Virus record (IMG/VR): IMGVR_UViG_3300007276_000217
Span: 1-28,400 of that record
Reading direction: 5' to 3' (one strand)
Source: a virus
Length of the DNA stretch: 28,400 nucleotides
In this document: positions 1 through 23,522 of the stretch, piece by piece
Layout: every line of letters starts with the position of its first letter
Position numbering within the stretch: position 1 is the stretch's first letter
Notes under the pieces: generated by a model
Seen by the model: the letters and a program-made list of their open reading frames with translations, nothing else
What the model was told of the DNA's origin: nothing
Database searches by the model: none
Program-made: the position numbers and the translations under genes

Positions 1-13
1 AAGTAAAACTATG

Positions 14-41
14 GGGGAGCTTAATTGCTCCCCTTTTTTTT
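14..41 (+). terminator. Rho-independent terminator at left edge
   Basis: A perfect 7-bp stem (GGGGAGC, 14-20, with GCTCCCC, 27-33) and a 6-base loop are followed by eight T (34-41). This is a textbook intrinsic terminator for rightward transcription, probably closing a + strand gene that lies left of the window. A TAA at 4-6 could be that gene's stop, but its frame cannot be confirmed. Confidence 0.85.
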
Positions 42-53
42 GTGCCTAAATTT

Positions 54-131
54 ATGATACCAGTAACTTAAACGCACCGAGCCTCGCACGTTAACACGTT
101 AGCCAGTGGCTAGAAAATGATACCAGTAACT
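54..131. repeat. Two copies of a 15-base direct repeat
   Basis: ATGATACCAGTAACT occurs at 54-68 and again at 117-131, exactly 63 bases apart. Each copy is followed by related sequence (CGCACCGAGCC after the first, CGCGTCGAGCC after the second), so the duplicated unit is probably about 30 bases. Palindrome copy 1 (100-112) lies between them. The setting, in a gene-free region just after a terminator, suggests a binding-site cluster or part of a replication origin; this is inference. Confidence 0.7.
100..112. repeat. 13-base palindrome, copy 1 (G centre)
   Basis: TAGCCAGTGGCTA is a perfect 6+1+6 inverted repeat, lying between the two 15-base direct repeats and not next to a start codon. It is one of eight copies found only in the first 6.6 kb of the window. 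Confidence 0.9.
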
Positions 132-264: not shown

Positions 265-277
265 TAGCCAGTGGCTA
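265..277. repeat. 13-base palindrome, copy 2 (G centre)
   Basis: A perfect TAGCCAGTGGCTA inside the gene-free region among the GTAAC motifs, about 300 bases upstream of the promoter. Like copies 1 and 8 it has G at the centre and is not attached to a ribosome-binding site. Confidence 0.9.
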
Positions 278-576: not shown

Positions 577-605
577 TTGACATTTCCTGATACTTGTGTT
601 ATACT
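577..605 (+). promoter_or_regulatory. Strong sigma-70 promoter for the early operon
   Basis: The -35 box TTGACA (577-582) matches consensus exactly. A 17-base spacer separates it from TATACT (600-605), which matches five of six consensus bases and is preceded by a TGN extended -10. Transcription should begin near 612 and read rightward into the gene at 705. This implies that host RNA polymerase transcribes the accessory operon. Confidence 0.85.
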
Positions 606-672: not shown

Positions 673-685
673 TAGCCACTGGCTA
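673..685. repeat. 13-base palindrome, copy 3 (C centre, leader type)
   Basis: TAGCCACTGGCTA ends 19 bases before the ATG at 705. The intervening leader (acaacaaac-ggagaaacaa) is nearly identical to that after copy 5, so palindrome, spacer and ribosome-binding site behave as one duplicated unit. Confidence 0.92.
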
Positions 686-704
686 ACAACAAACGGAGAA
701 ACAA

Positions 705-908
705 ATGCAATGTAAGAAATGTGACAATCAATTCTCAGTAGATCGAGCAATGTTAGGTTACACAACATGCCTTGACTGCGGTGACCAAGCCGCGACCCAA
801 GCACGCCTCGGTTGGACTATCGTACCCTTACCTAAACAAGGTTACACACGTATTACCAATATCGAAGAACTAAAGTACCTTAACCAAAAACCATTAGCCA
901 CTGGCTAG
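705..908 (+). CDS. Small zinc-ribbon-like phage protein
   Basis: A 67-residue protein and the first gene after the promoter. Two CxxC knuckles (Cys3/Cys6 and Cys22/Cys25) predict a small zinc-binding ribbon in the first 30 residues. The C-terminal half (WTIVPLPKQGYTRI...) resembles small uncharacterised proteins I recall from marine phages. The start is supported by GGAGA eight bases upstream. The last four codons and the stop (L-A-T-G-stop) lie inside palindrome copy 4, so the repeat supplies the end of the protein. As a small Cys-ribbon early product it could bind nucleic acid or host transcription machinery, but that is only inference. Confidence 0.75.
   Translation: MQCKKCDNQFSVDRAMLGYTTCLDCGDQAATQARLGWTIVPLPKQGYTRITNIEELKYLNQKPLATG
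895..907. repeat. 13-base palindrome, copy 4 (C centre, leader type)
   Basis: TAGCCACTGGCTA lies across the 3' end of the gene at 705, giving its stop codon TAG at 906-908, and ends 14 bases before the ATG at 922. The following leader (gagaggagaagaag) is of the short type shared with copies 6 and 7. Confidence 0.92.
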
Positions 909-921
909 AGAGGAGAAGAAG

Positions 922-1092
922 ATGACGTTTGAAATGTTAATCACATTATACGCAGGGGCATTACTTGTTTACGTACCCTACGTACTAATCAAGGTGGTCA
1001 GAACTAGACGAGAACATGACCGCCTACGTAAAGAATTTATAATGCAACATCCAAACCATGAGTATTGGAACAGAGGAGGAGAAGACCAATGA
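922..1092 (+). CDS. Small single-pass membrane protein
   Basis: A 56-residue ORF with a strong AGGAG site (910-916) eight bases before its ATG and only a short gap after the previous gene. Residues 4-25 (from FEMLITLYAGALLVYV) form one hydrophobic helix. A Lys/Arg-rich stretch follows (KVVRTRREHDRLRK), then a polar tail. By the positive-inside rule the C terminus should sit in the cytoplasm. The stop overlaps the next start as ATGA (1089-1092), indicating translational coupling. I do not recognise a family. The early position is compatible with a membrane-acting early protein such as an inhibitor or superinfection factor, but nothing in the sequence proves this. Confidence 0.7.
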   Translation: MTFEMLITLYAGALLVYVPYVLIKVVRTRREHDRLRKEFIMQHPNHEYWNRGGEDQ

Positions 1093-1973
1093 ACTTTGAA
1101 ACAAACACAGCCCCGACCCTTGCATCGTCAGCACTACTAGTTGACTTACGCATATCACAAGCAACACTTAGGAAGCTCGACAAGAGAGCTTCACAGGAAG
1201 TTGTTAACACAAACAATGCCAAGAGCGGCGTTGCGAATGTCCATAAAGCCCTACTTGGTGATAGCAATATCTTTCAGGCTATCGGCAAACACGTGGGTAA
1301 TGCACGCAACTTGCATGTGAGTATGACAACACCTTGGAGTGATGGTGGTCAACGCCTGATACCTACCAAGCGATACTTTGACTACACTAATACAATGTCA
1401 GATATGCAGAATGAGTTTGCCAATCTATGCGAGAAGTTCTTCATTGAGTACCCAAACCAAGTAGAGCAAGCCAAACTTAAGCTTGGTGACTTGTTCAATA
1501 AAAGTGACTACCCAAGTATAGAGGAACTCAAGCTTAAGTTTGCGTGGAATGTATACACGTTCCCATGTCCAGATGCAGGTGACATACGTGTCGATCTCCC
1601 TGCCGAGGCACTCAAGCAAGTTCGAGATGATTGCGAAGCAAGCTACAACAGTATGATAACCAAGTCTATGAATGATGTGTGGACACGTATACACGAAGCA
1701 CTTTCAAAGATGTCCAGGACTATCGACTTCGGTGACAATGAGAAGAAGAGTATATTCCGTGACACGCTCGTGTCCAATGTGACTAGTATAGTTGATATGC
1801 TTTCGGATTTTAATCTCGATAATAATCCTGAGAAAGAGAAGATACGTCAGCAACTGGAGTACACGTTCCAAGGTGTTACACCTGATGCACTACGTGAGGA
1901 CGCACACTTTCGCGCTCAAACCAAGAAGAACGTGGACGACATCCTTAAATCATTACCGTCAATTGGTATTTAA
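1089..1973 (+). CDS. Unknown helical protein preceding the MoxR ATPase
   Basis: A 294-residue, mostly helical and charged protein with no signal peptide or membrane segment. I start it at ATG 1089 rather than 1065: GGAGGAG lies just upstream and the ATG overlaps the preceding stop as ATGA. No catalytic motif is obvious. Its place immediately before a MoxR-type ATPase and a VWA protein recalls three-gene phage and plasmid cassettes in which a DUF3150-type protein comes first. I cannot confirm DUF3150 membership. It may be a substrate adaptor or third subunit of the ATPase/VWA machine; this is inference from position. It ends three bases before palindrome copy 5. Confidence 0.75.
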   Translation: MNFETNTAPTLASSALLVDLRISQATLRKLDKRASQEVVNTNNAKSGVANVHKALLGDSNIFQAIGKHVGNARNLHVSMTTPWSDGGQRLIPTKRYFDYTNTMSDMQNEFANLCEKFFIEYPNQVEQAKLKLGDLFNKSDYPSIEELKLKFAWNVYTFPCPDAGDIRVDLPAEALKQVRDDCEASYNSMITKSMNDVWTRIHEALSKMSRTIDFGDNEKKSIFRDTLVSNVTSIVDMLSDFNLDNNPEKEKIRQQLEYTFQGVTPDALREDAHFRAQTKKNVDDILKSLPSIGI

Positions 1974-1975
1974 CC

Positions 1976-1988
1976 TAGCCACTGGCTA
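1976..1988. repeat. 13-base palindrome, copy 5 (C centre, leader type)
   Basis: TAGCCACTGGCTA ends 19 bases before the ATG at 2008. The leader acaacaat-ggagaaacaaa matches that of copy 3 almost base for base, although the genes that follow are unrelated. Confidence 0.92.
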
Positions 1989-2007
1989 ACAACAATGGAG
2001 AAACAAA

Positions 2008-3102
2008 ATGAATAATTCAGCAAAACAAATGTATGCGGTGTCACTTGACCAATGCGTAGATGCAATGGTGGCGTATGGCAACAAGCGAACTCTATACTGT
2101 CAAGGTCACATGGGTATCGGTAAATCGTCGATGCTTACAGAGTTGGCGAAGCGACTACCAAACCACACGCCCTGTTACTTTGACTGTACCACCAAGGATC
2201 TCGGTGACATTATGATACCCAAGATGGCACAGTTAGATGGTCAGAACTATGTGACATACGCAACCAATGAAGAACTTGGCGTACACTTGAACAAACCTAT
2301 CATACTGATGATTGACGAGTTCGGTAAGGCAAACACTGCGGTGAAGAACGCATTGCTACGTGTCATACTAGAGCGCAAGATCGGTAGCTATGAACTACCA
2401 GAGGGAAGCATAGTGTTTGCCACATCGAACCTTGGAACAGAGGGCGTTGGTGATATGTTGTTACCACACCATCGTGATCGTCTGGTAACTGTACAGATAC
2501 GTAAACCTGATTACCTTGAGTGGATTGAGTGGGGTATCAACAACGGTATACATCCATCGGTACTAGGGTTTGTCAAAGACTTCCCTGCGGTATTGCAGAC
2601 ATTCGAAGATGTTAAAGACCCAACTGAGAACCCATACATTTACCATCCGCAACTACAACGCGTGGCTTTTACGACACCACGTTCCCTACATATGGCATCC
2701 GACTTACTACACGCACGGGGGTCGATAGATGATCACACCCTAACAAGTTTACTTATGGGTACTATCGGTGATCAAGGCGCTATGGACATGATGGCCTTTG
2801 TCAAACTAGCGGATCAACTACCATCCCTCGACAGTATCAAGAACGACCCCAAGAACGCGAGGGTTCCAGAGAGTGCGAGTGCCACATGTATGGTTGTATA
2901 CAGGTCATTGGCTTCAATGGAGAAAGACTGGATCAACGCGTGGATGGACTACATGCCAAGGCTAAACAAAGAAGCCCAAGGTATGTTTGTCAACGGTGCG
3001 AGGAACCCGAAGTACAGTAGGATCGACGTGGTTATGTCTAACGCCAAGTTTACCGAGTGGGCGAAGGACAACACATACATGTTCACAGCAGATAAAAAGT
3101 AA
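2008..3102 (+). CDS. MoxR/CobS-type AAA+ ATPase
   Basis: A 364-residue AAA+ ATPase of the MoxR kind. Visible motifs are Walker A GHMGIGKS (residues 33-40), Walker B ILMIDEF (99-105), sensor-1 Asn in FATSN (137-141), and an arginine-finger region HHRDR (154-158). A helical lid and a C-terminal domain follow. MoxR ATPases form hexameric rings that remodel a partner, typically delivered by a VWA-domain protein binding through its metal site. Here that partner is the next gene. GGAGA eight bases upstream fixes the start, after palindrome copy 5. The gene ends in a double stop, TAA then TAG, the second supplied by palindrome copy 6. The remodelled target is unknown. A CobS-like label would fit equally, but no cobalamin genes are present. 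Confidence 0.9.
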   Translation: MNNSAKQMYAVSLDQCVDAMVAYGNKRTLYCQGHMGIGKSSMLTELAKRLPNHTPCYFDCTTKDLGDIMIPKMAQLDGQNYVTYATNEELGVHLNKPIILMIDEFGKANTAVKNALLRVILERKIGSYELPEGSIVFATSNLGTEGVGDMLLPHHRDRLVTVQIRKPDYLEWIEWGINNGIHPSVLGFVKDFPAVLQTFEDVKDPTENPYIYHPQLQRVAFTTPRSLHMASDLLHARGSIDDHTLTSLLMGTIGDQGAMDMMAFVKLADQLPSLDSIKNDPKNARVPESASATCMVVYRSLASMEKDWINAWMDYMPRLNKEAQGMFVNGARNPKYSRIDVVMSNAKFTEWAKDNTYMFTADKK

Positions 3103-3115
3103 TAGCCACTGGCTA
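3103..3115. repeat. 13-base palindrome, copy 6 (C centre, leader type)
   Basis: TAGCCACTGGCTA abuts the TAA stop at 3100-3102 and ends 14 bases before the ATG at 3130, with the short leader gagaggaaaacaaa. Confidence 0.92.
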
Positions 3116-3129
3116 GAGAGGAAAACAAA

Positions 3130-4389
3130 ATGTTAATGTTAAATAATCTAACTGAAGAGCAACGGTTGTCCAAGGCCGTTGTCTCTATCATGGGCAACGA
3201 TGAATACGCCGCGTTGTCTGGGGTGTTGATGATAGGTGAGAGGTGTATCAAAGATGATGTGCCAACTGCCTACACCAACGGTAGGGATGAATACTATGGA
3301 CGTGGATTTGTTACAGGATTGACCGACCCACAGTTACGCTTCCTTGTACTACACGAAGTAGGACATAAGATGTATAGACATATCCACAACTACCAACACC
3401 TACACAAGCTAGACCCACAGCTAACCAACATGGCTATGGACTACGTTATCAACCTACAGATCATGGACGAGAACAAGAATGGTTTTGTGGAGTGGATCGA
3501 AGGTGGGTGTCTCGATGAGAAGTATCGAGGTATGAATACTGAAGAAGTGTTTAAGCTACTGTATGATGACACGTCATCAGGTAATGGCGACGACGATGCA
3601 GGTGGGAGTCCAAGTACAACAGGTGATGGGGCAGACAGCGGTAGTCCAAATACCACAGGTGATGGAAACACTGCTACAGGTAAGCCGTTTGATGACCATG
3701 ACTTTGATGGCGCGAAGGAGATGACCGAGGGTGAGAAGCAAGAACTCGAACGTGAGATCGACGAAGCGATACGCCAAGGTGACATGGTTGCAGGGAAGCT
3801 AGGCAATAAGGGTGCGCGTGATCTGGGTGAGTTACTTGAACCTCAAGTCAACTGGCGTGAAGTGTTGCGTGAGTTCATCTCGTCTACATGTGCAGGGAGT
3901 GACTACTCTACGTGGAACAGGCCGAACCGCAGATACATTGGCATGGACATCTATATGCCAAGCGGTATCTCTGAGAAGGTCGAGGAACTGGTATTAGCGA
4001 TAGATACATCAGGCTCGATTGGCAAAAATGAACTGTCGGTGTTCTTGTCTGAAATCAAGTCTATCTGTGATACGGTCAAGCCCTCATGTGTACGTGTGAT
4101 CTATTGGGATACCGAGGTGTGCCGTGATGAGAAGTACGAGACACATGAACTCGATACGTTGGTCAAGTCAACCAAGCCAAGAGGTGGCGGCGGTACGAAT
4201 GTCGAGTGTGTGCCAGAGTACATGGCCGAGCATGGCATCAAACCACAGGCTGTTATCGTGTTAACAGATGGTTACTTATACGGTGGCTGGGGTCAGTGGA
4301 CATGCCCTGTACTGTGGACAGTCCTAGATAATAAGACCGCGAAACCAAGCGTGGGTAAAGTAGTCCACGTCAAATCAAATAATATGTAA
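3130..4389 (+). CDS. DUF2201-type metallopeptidase-like/VWA protein
   Basis: A 419-residue two-domain protein. The N-terminal domain (about 1-145) carries HEVGH at 75-79, the zinc-binding HExxH of the putative metallopeptidase half of DUF2201, followed by a conserved-looking helix with MAMDYVIN (101-108). A Gly/Ser/Thr/Asp-rich linker with two similar SPxTTGDG units spans roughly 150-185. The C-terminal VWA domain starts near 285 with DTSGS (292-296). GGGGTN (352-357) and LTDG (378-381) complete a MIDAS metal site. Such proteins pair with MoxR ATPases, and the upstream neighbour is one. Whether the zinc site is proteolytic or structural cannot be told from sequence. Ribosome-binding sequence is GAGAGG, eight bases before the ATG. 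Confidence 0.88.
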   Translation: MLMLNNLTEEQRLSKAVVSIMGNDEYAALSGVLMIGERCIKDDVPTAYTNGRDEYYGRGFVTGLTDPQLRFLVLHEVGHKMYRHIHNYQHLHKLDPQLTNMAMDYVINLQIMDENKNGFVEWIEGGCLDEKYRGMNTEEVFKLLYDDTSSGNGDDDAGGSPSTTGDGADSGSPNTTGDGNTATGKPFDDHDFDGAKEMTEGEKQELEREIDEAIRQGDMVAGKLGNKGARDLGELLEPQVNWREVLREFISSTCAGSDYSTWNRPNRRYIGMDIYMPSGISEKVEELVLAIDTSGSIGKNELSVFLSEIKSICDTVKPSCVRVIYWDTEVCRDEKYETHELDTLVKSTKPRGGGGTNVECVPEYMAEHGIKPQAVIVLTDGYLYGGWGQWTCPVLWTVLDNKTAKPSVGKVVHVKSNNM

Positions 4390-4394
4390 ACAAT

Positions 4395-4407
4395 TAGCCA
4401 CTGGCTA
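4395..4407. repeat. 13-base palindrome, copy 7 (C centre, leader type)
   Basis: TAGCCACTGGCTA lies six bases after the stop of the VWA gene and ends 14 bases before the ATG at 4422, with the short leader gaggagaaaacaaa. Confidence 0.92.
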
Positions 4408-4421
4408 GAGGAGAAAACAAA

Positions 4422-5426: not shown

Positions 5427-6277
5427 GTTATAAAGCAAAACGTGTAAGTGATATTGACGATAATCTAACAGGTGAGCAGAATGATGGAGTAAAGAACTTC
5501 ACGCACCGACTGAGCAAACAGATGCGTGGTATAGATTTTCATTATAGAAACGAAAATTCATCTTGGGTATTCATGGAGGGGCAACCCTACTGCATGGGAT
5601 GGGTTGCCTTTGGCGACTTTCGCGATAGTGGCAAAGGTATTGAGAACTATGTCGTGTACTCTCATACTATACGGAATATGAAGTATAGTAGTGGTCACAG
5701 CGATCAGCATTACATGGTAATGTCTTTACACTTGAAGGACGGTGTGAAGAACGCGAAGCGGTATCTTAAAAACTTTACTATGTTTGACATAGCCAATGAA
5801 ACCTTGGGTCTTGTGAGACGGAAGTTTAACTCAGCGCGTCAAGAGGTACGGCGAGATGCAGATGAGATAAAGGGTAAGTTGTTTACGAGTAACGCTATGT
5901 ATCGTGAGATGGAACATCTATCTAATACTGGTTACGCGTTCTTAGACCCCGCGTTCGGGCAACAAGTTAAAGACTATGTAACATCTCAACAGGAGAAGAA
6001 AGTATCCGATGCTAAAAACCTACACCTACACCTTATAAAAGTATATGAGAAACTAGGTGAACAACACTTCGACGTGGTGCGGATTAACGATGCAGATGAC
6101 AGGTTCATACTTAGCCATAAAGATTTTCCAATAGAGTCTATAAAAACCTACGTTGATGAAACGCTCCCTGGTGAGCTGGCAGGTAAGCTATCAGTTGTAA
6201 ACATCTTAACACAAGATCAGTATGTTGAAGATGTGGGCTACGCATTGGGTGATGGTATGTACTATGTCGCAACTTGA
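5423..6277 (+). CDS. Hypothetical phage protein with YSHTIRN motif
   Basis: A 284-residue protein I do not recognise. The N-terminal third is aromatic-rich and contains YSHTIRN (about residue 79), matching YTHTIRN in the upstream gene. The middle (about 115-215) is helical and highly charged, and the C-terminal part looks globular. GGGAG eight bases before the ATG supports the start, and the ATGA overlap couples it to the preceding gene. No palindrome precedes it, so within this operon overlap and palindrome leaders seem to be alternative junctions. Confidence 0.75.
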   Translation: MSYKAKRVSDIDDNLTGEQNDGVKNFTHRLSKQMRGIDFHYRNENSSWVFMEGQPYCMGWVAFGDFRDSGKGIENYVVYSHTIRNMKYSSGHSDQHYMVMSLHLKDGVKNAKRYLKNFTMFDIANETLGLVRRKFNSARQEVRRDADEIKGKLFTSNAMYREMEHLSNTGYAFLDPAFGQQVKDYVTSQQEKKVSDAKNLHLHLIKVYEKLGEQHFDVVRINDADDRFILSHKDFPIESIKTYVDETLPGELAGKLSVVNILTQDQYVEDVGYALGDGMYYVAT

Positions 6278-6569
6278 TATTCCCCTTAACACGTTATATG
6301 TTGTGAGCGTACATCCTAATAAGGATCACATCAAGTTACAATGTATTGGTATGAATTGTGTTGACAACACATTGAAAGATAGCTATGACCATTGGGATGC
6401 ACTACCTGATTTTATCAAAGGCAAAGTAGCTGTGCTAATGTTGGTAGGCTATGATAGGGAGGTCAAGGGTGTTGGCATTAAACGAATGAATCGTACTGGC
6501 GTTGAAAGTTATTATGTGTACGATAAGCTTAGTAAAGGTACTTGGGCTAATGCGTGGATAAGACGCTAG
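6264..6569 (+). CDS. Small hypothetical protein, last gene of the accessory operon
   Basis: A 101-residue protein if started at ATG 6264 (MSQLDIPLN...). Upstream in-frame ATGs from 6222 exist but would lie deeper inside the previous gene and add a segment that looks like its out-of-frame shadow. A modest GGTGAT precedes 6264, with a 14-base overlap into the upstream gene. The body alternates strand-like hydrophobic stretches (LNTLYVVSV, VAVLMLVGY) and ends in basic WIRR. I recognise no family. The stop codon TAG (6567-6569) is the first triplet of palindrome copy 8. Confidence 0.65.
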   Translation: MSQLDIPLNTLYVVSVHPNKDHIKLQCIGMNCVDNTLKDSYDHWDALPDFIKGKVAVLMLVGYDREVKGVGIKRMNRTGVESYYVYDKLSKGTWANAWIRR

Positions 6570-6579
6570 CCAGTGGCTA
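6567..6579. repeat. 13-base palindrome, copy 8 (G centre)
   Basis: TAGCCAGTGGCTA begins with the stop codon of the upstream gene and lies ten bases before a UUCG-loop hairpin. It is 65 bases from the next start codon, so it is not a leader-type copy. It marks the right limit of the palindrome set and of the accessory operon. Confidence 0.9.
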
Positions 6580-6614: not shown

Positions 6615-6644
6615 TTGAAACCAGTTTTTTTTAGGAGGACTAAC

Positions 6645-7007
6645 ATGGCGATGACACCCGAAGCAAAAGTTAAGAAGACAGTCGTTAAACACCTTAAGGC
6701 TATAGGAGCATACTATTTCTATCCAGTTACAGGTGGCTACGGTGGTAGCGGCGTGCCTGATATAGTCGGGTGCTTTGAGGGGAGGTTCTTTGGCTTCGAA
6801 TGTAAAGCAGGTAAGAACACACCTACACCACTACAGGAAAAGAACTTAAGAGATATAGACGCACAACGTGGAATAGCTATAGTTGTTAACGAAGACAACA
6901 TGAACGAGGTCGAGGCTATACTCAGAGGGTATTGGTATAAGAAGACATTCCGATGGAATAGAGATCCAAAACAATTAGAGTTTGATTTTGAGATTACTAA
7001 GCGGTGA
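6645..7007 (+). CDS. VRR-NUC family nuclease
   Basis: A 120-residue stand-alone VRR-NUC domain of the PD-(D/E)XK fold. The core reads GVPDI (Asp39), then FECK (Glu52, Lys54), with Gln64 in the next helix, matching the family's D-ExK-Q pattern. Phage members are thought to cut structured DNA or assist recombination. I use ATG 6645 because a perfect AGGAGG (6633-6638) lies seven bases upstream. The open frame reaches back to a GTG at 6573, but that codon sits inside palindrome copy 8. The C terminus carries QLEFDF (110-115), which resembles a bacterial sliding-clamp-binding peptide. First gene of the replication module. Confidence 0.88.
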   Translation: MAMTPEAKVKKTVVKHLKAIGAYYFYPVTGGYGGSGVPDIVGCFEGRFFGFECKAGKNTPTPLQEKNLRDIDAQRGIAIVVNEDNMNEVEAILRGYWYKKTFRWNRDPKQLEFDFEITKR

Positions 7008-7577: not shown

Positions 7578-8018
7578 ATGAAACGACCAGTAGAAGAGAA
7601 GGTATTTGCATACCTATTAAACAACCCACTAGCTACAGCAGAAGAGATTACCAAGGCGGTAGGTTGTTCGTACAGTTACGCTAGCAAGACATTGAAGCGT
7701 GTGGGTACACCAAAAGAAGTTTTCGTGAAAGAGAAGTTTAAGAAGGAAGCTAACCGTAGTGTCTTACTTGATGAAGCATCGCGCCTTACATCAGGCGAGC
7801 GGAACAAAGACTATGGAGATCCTGTAGAGAACATGACACACATAGCGAGTATATTTAATGCTATGACAGGTCACGATATAAAACCATCAGAAGTACCTAT
7901 GTTCCACATTGCTACGAAATTAGCGCGTAGAAGAACAAGTCCACTCAAGAGAGATCACTATGTAGATATCATGGCTTACGTTGGTATTGCTTATGAGTGT
8001 GAGGTTGAAGAGAAGTAA
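7578..8018 (+). CDS. Winged-helix plus DUF6378-like phage protein
   Basis: A 146-residue protein of two parts. Residues 5-45 look like a winged helix-turn-helix (LNNPLATAEEITKAVGCSYS). Residues 62-142 match the pattern I recall for DUF6378: LLDEASRLTSGERNKDYGDP, then helices ending RDHYVDIMAYVGIAYE. DUF6378 proteins are common beside phage replication genes and their biochemical role is not established. GGGAGAG before the ATG supports the start, and its TAA overlaps the ATG of the polymerase gene by one base. The HTH part suggests DNA binding; this is inference. Confidence 0.75.
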   Translation: MKRPVEEKVFAYLLNNPLATAEEITKAVGCSYSYASKTLKRVGTPKEVFVKEKFKKEANRSVLLDEASRLTSGERNKDYGDPVENMTHIASIFNAMTGHDIKPSEVPMFHIATKLARRRTSPLKRDHYVDIMAYVGIAYECEVEEK

Positions 8019-16839: not shown

Positions 16840-16873
16840 CCGCTCGTGCTACAAACGCGGGCGGTTTTTTTTT
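16840..16873 (+). terminator. Intrinsic terminator of the replication module
   Basis: A 9-bp stem (16840-16848 with 16856-16864, two G-T wobbles) with loop CTACAAA is followed by nine T (16865-16873). It ends rightward transcription at the convergent junction. The T-run overlaps the stop codon of the - strand giant gene. On the - strand the hairpin has no following T-run, so it is not a clean terminator for that side. Confidence 0.9.
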
Positions 16874-19800
16874 AATCAAACAACTGTAATCCTTGATCCC
16901 AATCGTTACGGCTATCTTCTAAAGTCTCTCGCATCAATGGGTTCAAGCGAATACCATTGTACATCTCTAAAGATGTCTTTGCATGTTGTTTCATAGAACG
17001 ATCAATAGTCTCAGAAGTAATCGCTGCCTCTCTATGTTTTCTACTAAACTCACGCATATCTTTTCTTATTTCCCGCATACCATAAAAATCACCAAAACGT
17101 TTGGCAACGTAATATTGTTTTAATAATTTAGAACGTTTTCTACTTATAGCGGTATCTATACCTTTAACTATATTGTTTCGTTCTTGTTCCAACATGTACC
17201 CAGTAGGGGCAAATCCAAGAAACTGTCCTGCACTTTCAAGTACATTTACATCATCATATATAATATCACCACGCCTAGATTTGTACCCACCTTCTACGGA
17301 TATACGACCTATAAGTGGGAAAGCTTTATACATATTTGCTACACCTGCAGGTAAAAGGCTCTCCACGCCACGCATTAATTCGCCTTGATATAAATCTTTT
17401 GCACCCCGTTGTATCCTCTTCGCGCTACTTAGAGCAGGGCCGCCAAGGTGAAATCCTATTAGACCTTCTAAGTCACTGTTTCTGTCAAACTTGTTTTCTT
17501 GTAATAACAGACCTGTCAATCTTATACGGTTAGATGGGTCAATACCTGTCATAGCAGGAACACCTTTATACCAACCCTCTCCTATTGTTTTGCGTACAAC
17601 AGTGTCAAAATCATCATCGTCTTCACCTGCAATAAGTAAATTGTAAAGTACGCTTACTGCACCATAGATGGGTACGCCGTGAACCCCCGCAAAGAACAAC
17701 GACGTACCAAAGACACCTGCAAGTTGTTTTCTCGCAATGGATCTCTCTTTAGCGCTCATGTCAGTATCTGTCGCGGCTTTAAAAGACTTAAACATGGTGT
17801 AATACATTTGAAGCCCATAACTTTTATACATAAAGGCAACTCTTCCTAAACTTCTTTGTGTAAGTCTTGGAGCTGTCTCAAGCACTGCGCCACCATTGGT
17901 CTCTTGCGCTTGGCGTATTGCCTCTTTAGCGGCGGCTGTTTTCTGTTCTGTTGTAGCGTTTTTATTTTTACCCATTAATCTTGCGAGCTCTAACTTATAC
18001 CCAGCAAATATTGTAGTTTGGCGGTTAAAACGTTCTGCGTGGTTAAAGAAAAAAGCCGACACTGAAGATACAGTATCAAATTTTGAACTTGTTCGACCCG
18101 ACTCATCGAGCCCTAAAGCATCTTTTAAGAATGATGTAGTTAACAATCCTCGCTCCGCCGCCATTTGCACAACGGGTTTTATAAGCTCAAATTCTGCTTT
18201 AAGATTTTTAGGTACATCACTTTTTACTGTATAGTCGCCCTGCTCGTTTATATCATAGAATGATAACACATTGTTTTTTGCTGCTGTAACAAGTTTACCC
18301 GCAGTTGTAATGTCTGACATAGTTTCTTTGTACCCATACCTAGCACCTAAATACGGCATAACAAACAAAGGTACTTGAGATAAGTTAACTATGGCAGAGG
18401 ATACATTAAACCCAATAGTGTATATAAAAGCAAATTGATTAGTTAATTTAATTAGGGGTTCACTTGGAGGGTTACGTGCAAAAGAACCTCTTAATAGTAA
18501 TTCGTCTCTTACACTAATAAACGATGCGGTCAGAGCTTCAGAACCTTTACCTACAAAACTTTTAGCTTTCATTGCTGCAGGGTCAGGCGTTCCTAAATCA
18601 TATATTTGTTTTTCTATGTCTTGAATAATTTTACCGTGCACTAAACGCTCAGTCTGCCGCCCTAAGTCATAAGATTTTATACGGAAGGCCGCTAGAGAAT
18701 CTTCTATAAAACCTTCAAACCCTTTACGTTTTTGAAAAGACTTGGCAAAAGAAGTTTCAGGCAGAGTGTTAATAAACAACTGAACAATTTCTCTTTGTAC
18801 ATTAGGATCAATCTTGTTTGCTTTTAACGCGTCTAATGTTTTACCTACAAACGAAAATGAAGGGGCGTTCTCAAAATGTTTAACATTAAAATCACCATCG
18901 TCGGTTTTAACTTTTTCAAACTTATCATCTTTTCTTATCTCTGACGCCGCTCTATCTCTTTCGTTTCTAGTACTAAACATACGTACCACGTAAGAAGGAC
19001 TAGCCTCAGACTCTGGCGCTTGGTTTACGTTTTTATAGGAATACGTTAGTTTGTATCTACCTTCACGAGTAAGAGGAAAGTATACAGCTAAAGTGTTAGC
19101 TTTAAATATTTTTTTATACACACTACTTTTTAGTTTTTTAGATGCTTCTGGGTCACCTGCTAATGCAGCGTCTATGCGACCAAAAACAACATCTTTTAAT
19201 TTTTCATACATGTTTCTATAGGTGTCACGTAACTCAGTGTATTGTGCCAGCAACTTAGCCTTATCTGCGGTAGGTAGTTTATTTAATTCTTTTTGTTGTA
19301 GTTCCCATACATCCATTTTTTCAGATTCAGGGTTAAGTTTTTCTGCTTCATATTTAGGGTCTGCAAACTTACTATACTCTGCATCCCTATCTTTTTTAGT
19401 TTTAAAGGATTTAGTTTTTAAGTCTCCTTTGTTATTTAAGTACTCTAACTTATATCTAAGGTACTGTGCCTCAGCATCGGCCTTTGAAAGAAGCGGGTCT
19501 ACTTGGTTTATTGTACTTCCGTACTCTGAACTGTAAATAAGTTTGTCCATTACTTCTTTAAGCTTAGGGCTATCTTTAGAAAACTTAGCGAGTTTAGTCA
19601 TTATTATATCTAATCTAGCATCTGACCCCATCATAGCGCCACGTTGACCTTCTATCGCTTCATGTAAGGTTCTAGGTAAATTACCGAACCCAGCTTTTTC
19701 TGCTACATCTGCTAGGGCTTGCGTACCTAGTAACTTTAAAATAATACGTCTAGCATTCTCTTTTAAGTCTACTAGAATACCTATAAATTGATCTGCAAAA

Positions 19801-22800
19801 TTTTGTGCGCTTGGGGTGCTGTTAATTTTTTTCTGTATAGTATCAAACGCTTTTGCTACCGAGTTTACACCCTCTGCAGTTGCGTTTAATTTTAACATGT
19901 CTGCGTTTCTATACTCAGGTGCAGGAGCTATGAGAGCGTCAAACATACTGTTACCTTGTACCAGTGTATCTATCATAGAGAATACATCTAAACCCTTAAG
20001 AGATTCGTTTATATTAGGTATATAAGTTAGTGATACTGGAGATACGCCCACTAACTTACGAGCAAAGTTTGCTATTATATTCATAAATCTACGGTATACA
20101 CTTACGGGTTCACCTTGAACATTTATTGATGCCAGTGTTGCTTGAAACTCTGGGTTACTCATAGCTTCAGAAACAAACTCATCTAAATTTTTAGCGCCGT
20201 AAGCAGTGGGTATTAAATCCTTAACGCTTTTAAATAACGTGTTAAGCTGTGCTGTCGTAGGATTAGATTTATTTTCTAAGTTAGCCGATACAACCGCGTG
20301 TAACATTTCATGTAGTAACGTGTGCGTGTTTAAACCCTCTGTTGTATTTAAACTTATAGTGTTTGTCTTAGGGTCAAATATACCTGCGGAGTCTAAACCT
20401 TTTACCGTTTTAAGTTTTGTAGTACCTATGTTATCAGCAAGCACGTTTGCTAATGCACTAACGCGTGTACTTTGGCTAGTAATTGCTAACCCTTCAAGTG
20501 CGCTCTTAAGGTTACCTGCTAACAACAACTGTACAATCGTAGGGTGCATAGGAGTATCTAAGTTTGATACCGCGTCTAAAGGTAATTTTTTAAACTGTTC
20601 TCTATTAGCTTCGGCAAGTGTTTCTTTAGCTGCCCGTATTTTTGTACCTGTATTTGGGTCACTTGAAGAGTACGATACTTTAAGTCCTGTAAACCATTCT
20701 TGAGCGCCTTTAGATAAATTTTCATTAACCCATTTTTCTATACGGAGAGCTGATTCTGTGCCCGTGCCTTGGAAATGTTTTTGGGCGTCTGTATCTGCTC
20801 CTTTACGTACACTGCTTGTACCTAAAACTAACTCATAAGCAGCGGCCTCTAACTGCTCTACAGGAAACGGTGACTTCTGTAACTGCTCTTGTACTTGAGA
20901 TAACGCGTTAACTTTATCATTTATTCTCTTTGGTATCTTTTTTGTTATAAAATCATCTAGTTTTTTTACATCTTGAGCGTTTAATTTACCGTCTGCGGTT
21001 GCTTTTTTTACTACGTCTGTACCTAAAGAAATATCTGAAGCTAGAGACAACCAACGTTTTATTTCTGGTTTAGCGTTTTCTTCAAAATATTTTATTGTGT
21101 TTTTTATGCTCGCTATAGATGTTTTTCTATCAACGCTTTTCCTTGCCGAAGCATCGAGCCCTGTTTGTTTGTCTTTAGCTGTTTTAGCTAACTTAACTGC
21201 AGCTTGTTTTTTTTCTGCTTCAGCCTCAATTACTTTATTTTTTGCCGCTCTATCTTTAGCTTTAGCTACATCTTTACCTGTTTTAATATCGGCAACTCGT
21301 CGATCTGCTTCAACTTTAGTTATTTCACCTGACTTATAGTTTTTTTCTACTACAGCGATATTAACTTGTTGGTTGCGAGTTAGTTCAGCAAGGCTAGTTT
21401 CTATTTCACCTTTAAAAATAACTTCATCTAATGCAGAGTCTGCATCGCTTTTTCTATCATTAACAGATCTAACGAAAGTGTCAGAGTCACCCACTCCGTC
21501 TTTTTTAGATGCATCAAATTCCTTGGCATCCTTATCGTCTGTCTTTGGTATATCAGCTTGAACGCCATCTCCACTTCTTCCTGCGTCAGTTTTTCTAATA
21601 TTTGCATCAGGTTTTTTCCTTCTTCTAGGGGGAAATAAGTCTCCTTGTGCTTCAGGTACATCTCTGAGATAGTTACTAATGTTTAATTTTGTTTGTTGAG
21701 CCACGTTTGCAGTATTCGCATGTTTTATAAGTTCTTGGCGTACAACAGGGTCAGATACACTTTTGTTTATTATACGTTTACGTATAGGGGCAGCGGCACG
21801 TATACCTAACTTAGCGAGCAACCCAGTTGTTATTGTACTAGGGTCTGTGGTCGGTTCTCTTGCGTCAATCCTCGCCTGTCTTTGTTTTTCTCCGTAGTTT
21901 GGCCCTAAACCAGGTAAACTATCCTGTACTTCTGTACGTTCTATTTCTGGGGAAAGAGCTAATTCTTCAGTTTTTTTAGCGTCTTCACGTTCTATTTCGT
22001 CTGTTTGTATTTTTTCTAAAGTCTTTTGGCGAGTTAAAGCACGATCAGCTTCGCTAAGTTGTTTTTCTTGTTTAGCGTCTCCTACGGCTGATAATAACGC
22101 TGAAGATAACGCTGTATCAGGTGCTCCAACTGCACTTTTTTCTAAGTCTGCGACGTTTGTTATAGGGGCTTGTAGTTCTTCACTAGGGCGATCTTTAAAG
22201 TCAAATTCTGTTTGTGTAGCACCATCTATATTTTTTCTATAGTTATCAATGTAATCAGATAAATATTTTGACGCCTCGGCAATAGGCATTTTAGTTTCTT
22301 TTACAAACCTATCTGCGGTTGCTGTTGATATAGTCCCTTTGCTATTAAGTTCTTTGTCTATATCACTCATTAATTCTGCTCTAGCATCACCAAAATCAAA
22401 TTCACTTTGGTCTTCTGTAGTAACAGTAATGGGTGTAGTACCCAGATCTGTGTCGTCGCCAAACAATTCACTTTGATCTTCTGTAGTAACAGTAATGGGT
22501 GTAGTACCTAAATCTGTGTCGTCGTCAAACAATTCACCTTGTACTGCAGGAGTTGTTTCTGTTATTTTTGTTGGATCTGAAATTTCGTCTGGTTCTGGTT
22601 TAGCGGCTCGTACATTACCTACGCCACCTATAGTACCACCAAGCATACCCGCTGCTACACCCGCGTCTATGTATTCACTTATAGCCTCGTCATTATCTAA
22701 AGACAGTCCAGCTTGAGCACGTTCGAGAACTTGTTGTCCTATCTCGGTGGGTACTTCTGCCGCTGCACCTCTGACTGACCCTTTGCCTATTCTTGTAAGT

Positions 22801-23522
22801 ATACCGCCTTGCTTCATTGCAGGTTTTGCAAAAAACCCCCCAACTAATAAACGGTCAACAATACCTTCTGCTACTGCTTGGGGTATTGCAGTTAAAAATG
22901 CTGCACCTTCACTTATTTCTGGTTTAAGTCCTTGCTCCACAGCTTCTTTTTGTCGTTGACGGTTCCAACCATAAAATAAAGGTAGCTGTGATAATGCGGC
23001 TGCACCTGCTCCGATAAGAGCCCCAGGTACACCTCCCCCAACAAGTGCGCCTGCTAATGCACCTGTGCCAATACCAATTCCCATAGGGACTGAAGACTCT
23101 GCTAAAGTTTCTCCAAAATAACTTGCCCCCGTACCAAGACCTTCTACATCTTGCCGCCTAGTTGCAAATGTTTCTGCGCGTTGTAGTTGCGCTTCGTTCT
23201 CTAACGCCATGTCAGCGCCGTATTCTTCAAGCCCCTCAAGCCCTAAAACACTACCTACTCCTTCTATGGCAGAGCCTACACCTTCTCCAGTTAAATCTAC
23301 GCTGCGACGAAACCCACGCTCAAGAGCATTACGATTAGCATTCTCATAATCCGCCGAAGCTTGCAAATAGTCTTCCATTGTATCTGTTTCGGGTACTGCG
23401 GGAGTCTGTTCAAGTGTTTGACTTAACTCTTGCAGCCCCGCCGCAACAGTATTCCACTGGTCGCTACCTTTTTTATCTTGATTATTGTTTATCCAAGTTG
23501 CTAGGTTCTCTATATCTGACAT
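16872..23522 (-). CDS. Giant polyvalent internal virion protein with HExxH metallopeptidase motif
   Basis: A 2216-residue protein, probably packaged and injected with the DNA. Residues 145-180 are a Gly/Ala-rich hydrophobic segment. Residues 320-660 look disordered and acidic, with two 22-residue tandem repeats (351-394). A charged coiled-coil region follows. HEMLH at 1071-1075, with a downstream DEFVSEA, forms a zinc metallopeptidase signature like those of polyvalent proteins. The C-terminal part has hydrophobic stretches near 1695-1727 and 1930-1965 and an FMYKSYGLQMYYTMF segment resembling large-polyvalent-protein domain LPD38. Five QxELF/QxEFDF-type peptides lie at 328, 350, 372, 437 and 626. 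An AAAGG precedes the ATG. Likely roles are membrane channel formation during ejection and processing of host targets. Confidence 0.85.
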   Translation of the reverse strand: MSDIENLATWINNNQDKKGSDQWNTVAAGLQELSQTLEQTPAVPETDTMEDYLQASADYENANRNALERGFRRSVDLTGEGVGSAIEGVGSVLGLEGLEEYGADMALENEAQLQRAETFATRRQDVEGLGTGASYFGETLAESSVPMGIGIGTGALAGALVGGGVPGALIGAGAAALSQLPLFYGWNRQRQKEAVEQGLKPEISEGAAFLTAIPQAVAEGIVDRLLVGGFFAKPAMKQGGILTRIGKGSVRGAAAEVPTEIGQQVLERAQAGLSLDNDEAISEYIDAGVAAGMLGGTIGGVGNVRAAKPEPDEISDPTKITETTPAVQGELFDDDTDLGTTPITVTTEDQSELFGDDTDLGTTPITVTTEDQSEFDFGDARAELMSDIDKELNSKGTISTATADRFVKETKMPIAEASKYLSDYIDNYRKNIDGATQTEFDFKDRPSEELQAPITNVADLEKSAVGAPDTALSSALLSAVGDAKQEKQLSEADRALTRQKTLEKIQTDEIEREDAKKTEELALSPEIERTEVQDSLPGLGPNYGEKQRQARIDAREPTTDPSTITTGLLAKLGIRAAAPIRKRIINKSVSDPVVRQELIKHANTANVAQQTKLNISNYLRDVPEAQGDLFPPRRRKKPDANIRKTDAGRSGDGVQADIPKTDDKDAKEFDASKKDGVGDSDTFVRSVNDRKSDADSALDEVIFKGEIETSLAELTRNQQVNIAVVEKNYKSGEITKVEADRRVADIKTGKDVAKAKDRAAKNKVIEAEAEKKQAAVKLAKTAKDKQTGLDASARKSVDRKTSIASIKNTIKYFEENAKPEIKRWLSLASDISLGTDVVKKATADGKLNAQDVKKLDDFITKKIPKRINDKVNALSQVQEQLQKSPFPVEQLEAAAYELVLGTSSVRKGADTDAQKHFQGTGTESALRIEKWVNENLSKGAQEWFTGLKVSYSSSDPNTGTKIRAAKETLAEANREQFKKLPLDAVSNLDTPMHPTIVQLLLAGNLKSALEGLAITSQSTRVSALANVLADNIGTTKLKTVKGLDSAGIFDPKTNTISLNTTEGLNTHTLLHEMLHAVVSANLENKSNPTTAQLNTLFKSVKDLIPTAYGAKNLDEFVSEAMSNPEFQATLASINVQGEPVSVYRRFMNIIANFARKLVGVSPVSLTYIPNINESLKGLDVFSMIDTLVQGNSMFDALIAPAPEYRNADMLKLNATAEGVNSVAKAFDTIQKKINSTPSAQNFADQFIGILVDLKENARRIILKLLGTQALADVAEKAGFGNLPRTLHEAIEGQRGAMMGSDARLDIIMTKLAKFSKDSPKLKEVMDKLIYSSEYGSTINQVDPLLSKADAEAQYLRYKLEYLNNKGDLKTKSFKTKKDRDAEYSKFADPKYEAEKLNPESEKMDVWELQQKELNKLPTADKAKLLAQYTELRDTYRNMYEKLKDVVFGRIDAALAGDPEASKKLKSSVYKKIFKANTLAVYFPLTREGRYKLTYSYKNVNQAPESEASPSYVVRMFSTRNERDRAASEIRKDDKFEKVKTDDGDFNVKHFENAPSFSFVGKTLDALKANKIDPNVQREIVQLFINTLPETSFAKSFQKRKGFEGFIEDSLAAFRIKSYDLGRQTERLVHGKIIQDIEKQIYDLGTPDPAAMKAKSFVGKGSEALTASFISVRDELLLRGSFARNPPSEPLIKLTNQFAFIYTIGFNVSSAIVNLSQVPLFVMPYLGARYGYKETMSDITTAGKLVTAAKNNVLSFYDINEQGDYTVKSDVPKNLKAEFELIKPVVQMAAERGLLTTSFLKDALGLDESGRTSSKFDTVSSVSAFFFNHAERFNRQTTIFAGYKLELARLMGKNKNATTEQKTAAAKEAIRQAQETNGGAVLETAPRLTQRSLGRVAFMYKSYGLQMYYTMFKSFKAATDTDMSAKERSIARKQLAGVFGTSLFFAGVHGVPIYGAVSVLYNLLIAGEDDDDFDTVVRKTIGEGWYKGVPAMTGIDPSNRIRLTGLLLQENKFDRNSDLEGLIGFHLGGPALSSAKRIQRGAKDLYQGELMRGVESLLPAGVANMYKAFPLIGRISVEGGYKSRRGDIIYDDVNVLESAGQFLGFAPTGYMLEQERNNIVKGIDTAISRKRSKLLKQYYVAKRFGDFYGMREIRKDMREFSRKHREAAITSETIDRSMKQHAKTSLEMYNGIRLNPLMRETLEDSRNDWDQGLQLFD
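22401..22532 (-). repeat. 66-base tandem duplication inside the giant virion gene
   Basis: Units 22401-22466 and 22467-22532 are near-identical at DNA level, with a handful of substitutions. They encode two 22-residue copies of an acidic DDTDLGTTPITVTTEDQSE-type repeat. The low divergence shows a fairly recent duplication, consistent with a flexible linker of variable length. Confidence 0.9.

Follow-up and report, generated by a model that had tools for sequence, protein, structure and literature searches.

The window, which is the whole 28.4-kb IMG/VR record IMGVR_UViG_3300007276_000217 and itself a genome fragment, opens on the end of an early phage gene, here called gp1, and continues on the + strand with genes for a small zinc-ribbon-like protein, a DUF3150-like protein (so named after its syntenic counterpart as annotated in MinM2), an AAA ATPase and a DUF2201 metallopeptidase/VWA protein, followed further on by DNA polymerase, exonuclease, helicase, SSB-like and primase-helicase genes. 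Virion genes occupy the - strand, among them one for a 2216-aa protein (16872-23522) whose C-terminal part is DarB-like by PHROG matches. At 7578-8018, an N-terminal HTH-like stretch (TrmB-like) is fused to DUF6378.

The 13-mer TAGCCANTGGCTA is present eight times in this window, and all eight copies are confined to its first 6.6 kb (Table 1). When up to two mismatches are allowed, there are 17 strand-matches against 0.60 expected, a number that none of 100 shuffled sequences attained. An earlier note on this DNA had described five of the copies as a cassette preceding unrelated genes, with an operator-like inverted repeat, and in this it was right: the 13-mer is exact at all five sites, the spacing to each ATG is as given there, and the leaders that follow are of two types, a long one (copies 3 and 5) and a short one (copies 4, 6 and 7). 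It had missed three further perfect copies (1, 2 and 8), and its division of the site into 5-nt arms around a 3-nt loop has to be revised, the actual dyad being 6+1+6 (TAGCCA N TGGCTA). In the clade to which the window belongs, the central base is C in all five operon-leader copies and drifts in most of the others; in the window, copies 1, 2 and 8 have G. The first two of these lie between the gp1 terminator and the operon promoter, i.e., upstream of the promoter, and we found no palindrome that overlaps a strong promoter.

Table 1. Coordinates of the palindrome copies and neighboring signals in the window
Feature	Position	Strand	Remarks
Last codon and stop of gp1 (AAGTAA)	1..6	+	terminator that follows is identical to the one behind gp1 in L030/L043
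gp1 intrinsic terminator	13..41	+	
Palindrome copy 1, TAGCCAGTGGCTA	100..112		non-coding, away from any start
Palindrome copy 2, TAGCCAGTGGCTA	265..277		non-coding, away from any start
Early-operon promoter	577..605	+	strong, sigma-70-like, TTGACA-17-TATACT, 11/12; conserved in L030, L050, L052
Palindrome copy 3, TAGCCACTGGCTA	673..685		19 nt before ATG 705 (67-aa zinc-ribbon-like protein)
Palindrome copy 4	895..907		14 nt before ATG 922 (56 aa); overlaps stop of ORF 705-908
Palindrome copy 5	1976..1988		19 nt before ATG 2008 (AAA ATPase, phrog_1297)
Palindrome copy 6	3103..3115		14 nt before ATG 3130 (DUF2201 metallopeptidase/VWA, phrog_1314)
Palindrome copy 7	4395..4407		14 nt before ATG 4422 (334 aa, unknown)
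Palindrome copy 8, TAGCCAGTGGCTA	6567..6579		overlaps stop of ORF 6222-6569; terminator-like hairpin directly after, at operon end

Positions 60-600 form a putative replication origin, and L118, L180, L121, L050 and L052 have a similar region at that place: shortly before the operon promoter lies an AT-rich TATATATA tract, with short genome-specific iterons around it in opposite orientations. These iterons read AATGTTAC/GTAACATT in the window and AATGTTCG, AGTTCCAA, TGTACCG or ATGTTTCA in relatives; their word, too, differs from phage to phage. A unit of the form gataccagt/gaaaccagt ... gcgtcgagc recurs after terminators and non-leader palindromes, at 55-160 and 6634-6650 of the window and in L118, L121 and L180. 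In phages with TTCGGGYA-type sites, the origin-like region holds two to three palindromes spaced by exactly 110 bp (L121 1532/1642 and L180 1615/1725/1835, both counted from the TerL start; also L183, L192, L196, L197, L203 and L206).

Replacement of the palindrome in related phages

Close relatives of the window phage each carry about ten exact copies of its palindrome at matching places. Relatives whose terminases are 81-98% identical have a different, genome-specific palindrome at the same gene borders, and in more distant relatives there are zero copies of the window palindrome, each genome again having its own at those borders. These replacements include GGTTAGTCnnnGACTAACC in L050, GTTAGTGnnnCACTAAC in L052, L118 and L141, CGATAAGTAATTACTTATCG in L051/L078, and TTCGGGCAnnTGCCCGAA in L121 and L180; the candidate site for the gp1 of L141 is GTTAGTGNNNCACTAAC, and the site word of the cultured Synechococcus phage MinM2 is GGTTCAGNCTGAACC. 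In total, the palindromes fall into 18 classes across 54 genomes. The 38 genomes whose palindrome arms are at least 7 long contain 185 exact copies and 28 with one or two mismatches, compared with about one expected from shuffled half-sites. The earlier note had regarded the same gene order without its palindrome as evidence against the cassette; relatives lacking this palindrome do occur, but with another palindrome at the same place.

Conservation of position is seen most readily in the leader of the AAA gene, where 17 of 26 genomes, using nine half-site words between them, have their own palindrome at a distance of 11-30 nt, or 81 nt in one case. In L025, L038 and L030, extra small genes lie directly 3' of the second leader palindrome relative to the window, such that the site keeps its border position while the gene behind it changes. 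Short, repeated, extragenic and genome-specific sequences are also what one would expect of repetitive extragenic palindromes spread by a transposase and devoid of any regulatory role. That origin is very improbable, given that orthologous positions are kept in relatives even though the sequence is replaced, that copies within a genome have the palindrome in common but not their flanks, and that no transposase-like gene was seen beside the sites.

In their portal protein, the close relatives are similar to HTVC023P pelagiphages, Roseobacter phage CRP-901/902, Phage DSL-LC04 and the cyanophages MinM2/Pag-Yong1. No such palindrome family was found in the stretches examined of the HTVC023P, DSL-LC04 and CRP-902 isolates. 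MinM2 has 33 sites of GTTCAGNCTGAAC (at most one mismatch) distributed over the whole genome, late genes included, many of them 18-29 nt before annotated starts. The many one-site matches in unrelated large contigs are probably due to chance. The label Rhodobacterales on a single MAG contig, whose terminase is 76% identical, is a weak hint as to the host.

The genome-wide distribution in MinM2, together with the two window copies that flank the putative iteron-type origin, could be accommodated if the palindromes served to organize or segregate the genome, as parS/ParB-like or nucleoid-like sites with no role in transcription. We consider this unlikely, since the sites are strongly placed at early gene borders and a ParA-type ATPase (PF13614) was detected in none of 12 records, several of them fragments; integrase (PF00589) was likewise absent from these records, and 14 of 14 controls were matched.

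Probable duplex-DNA sites and the candidate partner gp1

The earlier note had pictured an RNA hairpin and took a fixed register to the start codons as a sign that translation or mRNA processing is controlled. The register does not hold: three of the eight window copies are away from starts, the distance from palindrome to start in relatives ranges from 0 to about 60 nt, and copies occur before a terminator, upstream of the operon promoter and, in L050 and L052, within coding sequence. Tabulating distances, as the note had proposed, shows that 159 of 279 sites precede a start by no more than 60 nt (median 19 nt), with variable spacing. The hairpin fares no better, in that RNA folding energy is ordinary relative to shuffles in most leaders and the symmetry extends into positions that a hairpin could not pair. 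In most kinds of palindrome, the dyad reaches a center of 0-2 nt; complementarity holds for 97 of 99 pairs that would close a 2-nt loop and for 138 of 180 that would close a 1-nt loop (always in the TAGCCA, GGTTCAG, GTAGTGA and TACATCTCA kinds), counts that are partly built in by the definition of the arms. Because symmetry this close to the center can be used by a protein dimer on duplex DNA and not by a hairpin, it indicates a duplex dyad, and a site that acts at the DNA level also fits the copies that lie in coding sequence or in places that seem not to be transcribed. The TTCGGGCAnnTGCCCGAA sites have a self-complementary central dinucleotide in just 1 of 51 cases (L121, L180, L181, L183, L187, L192, L196, L197, L206), and these dyads may have a hidden orientation.

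These features bear directly on two alternatives. If the palindromes were translational operators, a phage protein would bind an RNA hairpin upstream of the Shine-Dalgarno sequence and block or help 30S loading, much as MS2 coat protein acts on its RNA operator. The prevalence of sites shortly upstream of starts is in line with such a function, as is the constraint on the central base, which in the window clade applies only to leader copies; but the copies outside leaders, the variable distances, the dyad symmetry where a loop would be shorter than 3 nt, the weak folding and the single mismatches (11 non-GU vs. 5 GU) all argue otherwise, and we judge it improbable. The second alternative is that the sites are DNA-hairpin promoters recognized by a virion RNA polymerase as in phage N4, whose promoters have a 5-bp stem, a 3-nt loop with a fixed central purine on the template, and a start about 11 nt from the center. 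Read as TAGCC-ACT-GGCTA, the window palindrome matches these stem and loop sizes and stands just before early genes, like the N4 promoters. No related polymerase was detected: the giant virion protein yielded no match to the N4 vRNAP in a sequence-only search, which a very distant polymerase could escape, and its PHROG matches are DarB-like. Moreover, G does not stand at the predicted +1 position of every leader, and the loop and center rules are not kept across relatives, with the central-base rule broken in L050 and L052 and even-centered palindromes without a 3-nt loop in many others, which makes promoters of this type highly unlikely. Taken as a whole, the palindromes are very probably DNA targets of a phage-encoded factor, and of this we are more certain than of the identity of the factor or of its mode of action.

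The candidate for this factor is gp1, the first early gene, situated between the terminase small subunit gene and the origin-like region, immediately left of the window, and intact in L030, L043, L025 and L038. It is hypervariable: gp1 of the TAGCCA clade has no BLAST partner outside the clade, where terminases are more than 80% identical, but a comparison of profiles still aligns two gp1 groups along their length (94.7% probability). Wherever two genomes have a gp1 score above 0.26, their palindromes are of the same kind; TerL/TerS scores reach 0.98 between genomes whose palindromes are different. A partial Mantel test of gp1 against palindrome given TerL returned r = 0.35 (p = 0.0005). In L071, whose TerL is 95% identical to that of the TAGCCA clade, gp1 is unrelated and the palindrome at that spot is TGTACGTCAtTGACGTACA. 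Conversely, loci retrieved by gp1 alone had TAGCCA sites in 13 of 13 cases for the TAGCCA type (L025, L038 and L054 are among the carriers of such sites) and a GTTAG core in 26 of 26 for the L141 type, the latter counted only over loci where a repeated palindrome was detectable and extending down to 32-40% gp1 identity; the retrieved loci include phages with terminases only 64-79% identical.

Rank correlation does not separate gp1 from its neighbors, for which the AUC was 0.88 (TerS), 0.85 (VWA) and 0.81 (DUF3150), each on its own subset, and the case for gp1 thus relies on the exceptions and on gp1-only retrieval. Because gp1 adjoins two of the sites, linked transfer could inflate its correlation with the palindrome; and since the correlations of neighbors are of similar size and the genomes are not independent, the association amounts to strong linkage rather than proof. 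(The MinM2 gp1 entry in the comparison tables is a wrong ORF.) Most gp1 proteins are basic, and a model of L141 gp1 built from 27 sequences is predicted to be all-helical with a mean pLDDT of 90; the model for the TAGCCA clade is of low confidence. With the L141 model, Foldseek and VIA gave no convincing match in PDB or BFVD, and there was a single weak gp1 match to an HTH family (E 0.004). Overall, gp1 is probably the factor acting on the palindromes. The HTH proteins of the window were also considered as the specificity factor and rejected, because at 54-74% identity across phages with different palindromes they are too conserved to be good candidates.

Proposed regulation and comparison with known systems

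The interpretation that we favor, with a probability of about 0.62 as judged from sequence, is that the palindromes constitute a set of operators bound by a gp1 dimer, which would block or tune transcription of the early operon in a manner resembling stoperators but outside that family. A dimer of gp1 would recognize the palindromes as duplex DNA; occupied sites in the leader of gp1 itself would bring about autoregulation, and occupied border sites along an operon served by a single promoter would hinder RNA polymerase, so that early expression is tuned or shut off. That gp1 acts as such a roadblock is close to an even proposition, falling a little short of one. The constant C at the center of the operon-leader copies in the window clade, with drift elsewhere, speaks against a dimer that is blind to the center, and that none of the sites overlaps a strong promoter also counts against this interpretation. 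Site specificity might then diverge such that co-infecting relatives avoid cross-regulation. We found no lysogeny genes that would explain a system resembling immunity.

The replacement of one palindrome by another, together with a different gp1, suggests that regulators and their control sites in related marine phages form a large set of matched pairs that changes quickly. We tentatively propose a broader view, in which gp1 represents a new family of early DNA-binding regulators in widespread marine podovirus-like phages, with some 18 different palindromic operator sets swapped as matched pairs between near-identical phages without known lysogeny genes; this would be an immunity-like specificity system, possibly serving competition between co-infecting lytic phages. 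In the literature searched, whose coverage is incomplete, we encountered no earlier report of these palindromes, and PMC10149686 and PMC9599517 make no mention of palindromes. Matched regulator-operator pairs, many of them in phages that hardly differ in their other genes, would provide a natural series from which to read how DNA-binding specificity evolves, and they raise the question of what maintains immunity-like diversity in phages that show no lysogeny genes. The linked sites can also be used to locate and name the members of a hypervariable protein family that sequence searches fail to recognize.

Among known systems, the start-associated sequences of cluster K mycobacteriophages, to which the earlier note had pointed, make a fair analogy, since their extended form (ESAS) also has inverted repeats, with a consensus that varies from one subcluster to another (PMC3203893). 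ESAS lie just upstream of the starts of unrelated genes and the factor involved is unknown; the repeats are imperfect, with 17-bp arms and a 4-13-bp spacer, and are tied to a separate asymmetric 13-bp SAS, GGGATAGGAGCCC (PMC3203893, PMC12699233). The palindromes described here share the association with starts and the lineage-specific consensus, but have shorter arms without mismatches, and some copies are not at starts; read by eye, the leaders of the five start-associated copies do not contain GGGATAGGAGCCC.

The nearest working analogy, offered as such, is found in the stoperators of cluster A mycobacteriophages (L5, Bxb1; Gp71-type repressors), in which many sites of the 13-bp class lie in short intergenic spaces, the motif changes from one related phage to another in step with the divergence of a single regulator gene, and the leader of that gene has a site of its own (PMC6550527, PMC9283540). 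Here, too, multiple sites occupy short intergenic spaces of one genome, and the motif varies between phages together with a candidate regulator gene, gp1. The repressor of the stoperators has an HTH domain and halts elongation; gp1 has one weak HTH-family match and no clear fold match. Stoperators, however, are asymmetric, bound by a monomer, set in one orientation, altered by a few bases at a time, and found in temperate phages with integrase or parABS (PMC6550527, PMC9283540), whereas the present sites are perfect dyads of 13-20 bp (TAGCCA-N-TGGCTA and analogues) that change wholesale among phages 80-98% identical, with integrase and ParA missing from all 12 records, several of them fragments. 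It is this asymmetry and the lysogeny genes that set the stoperators of cluster A apart from the palindromes, which resemble them in placement and in their covariation with one early gene.
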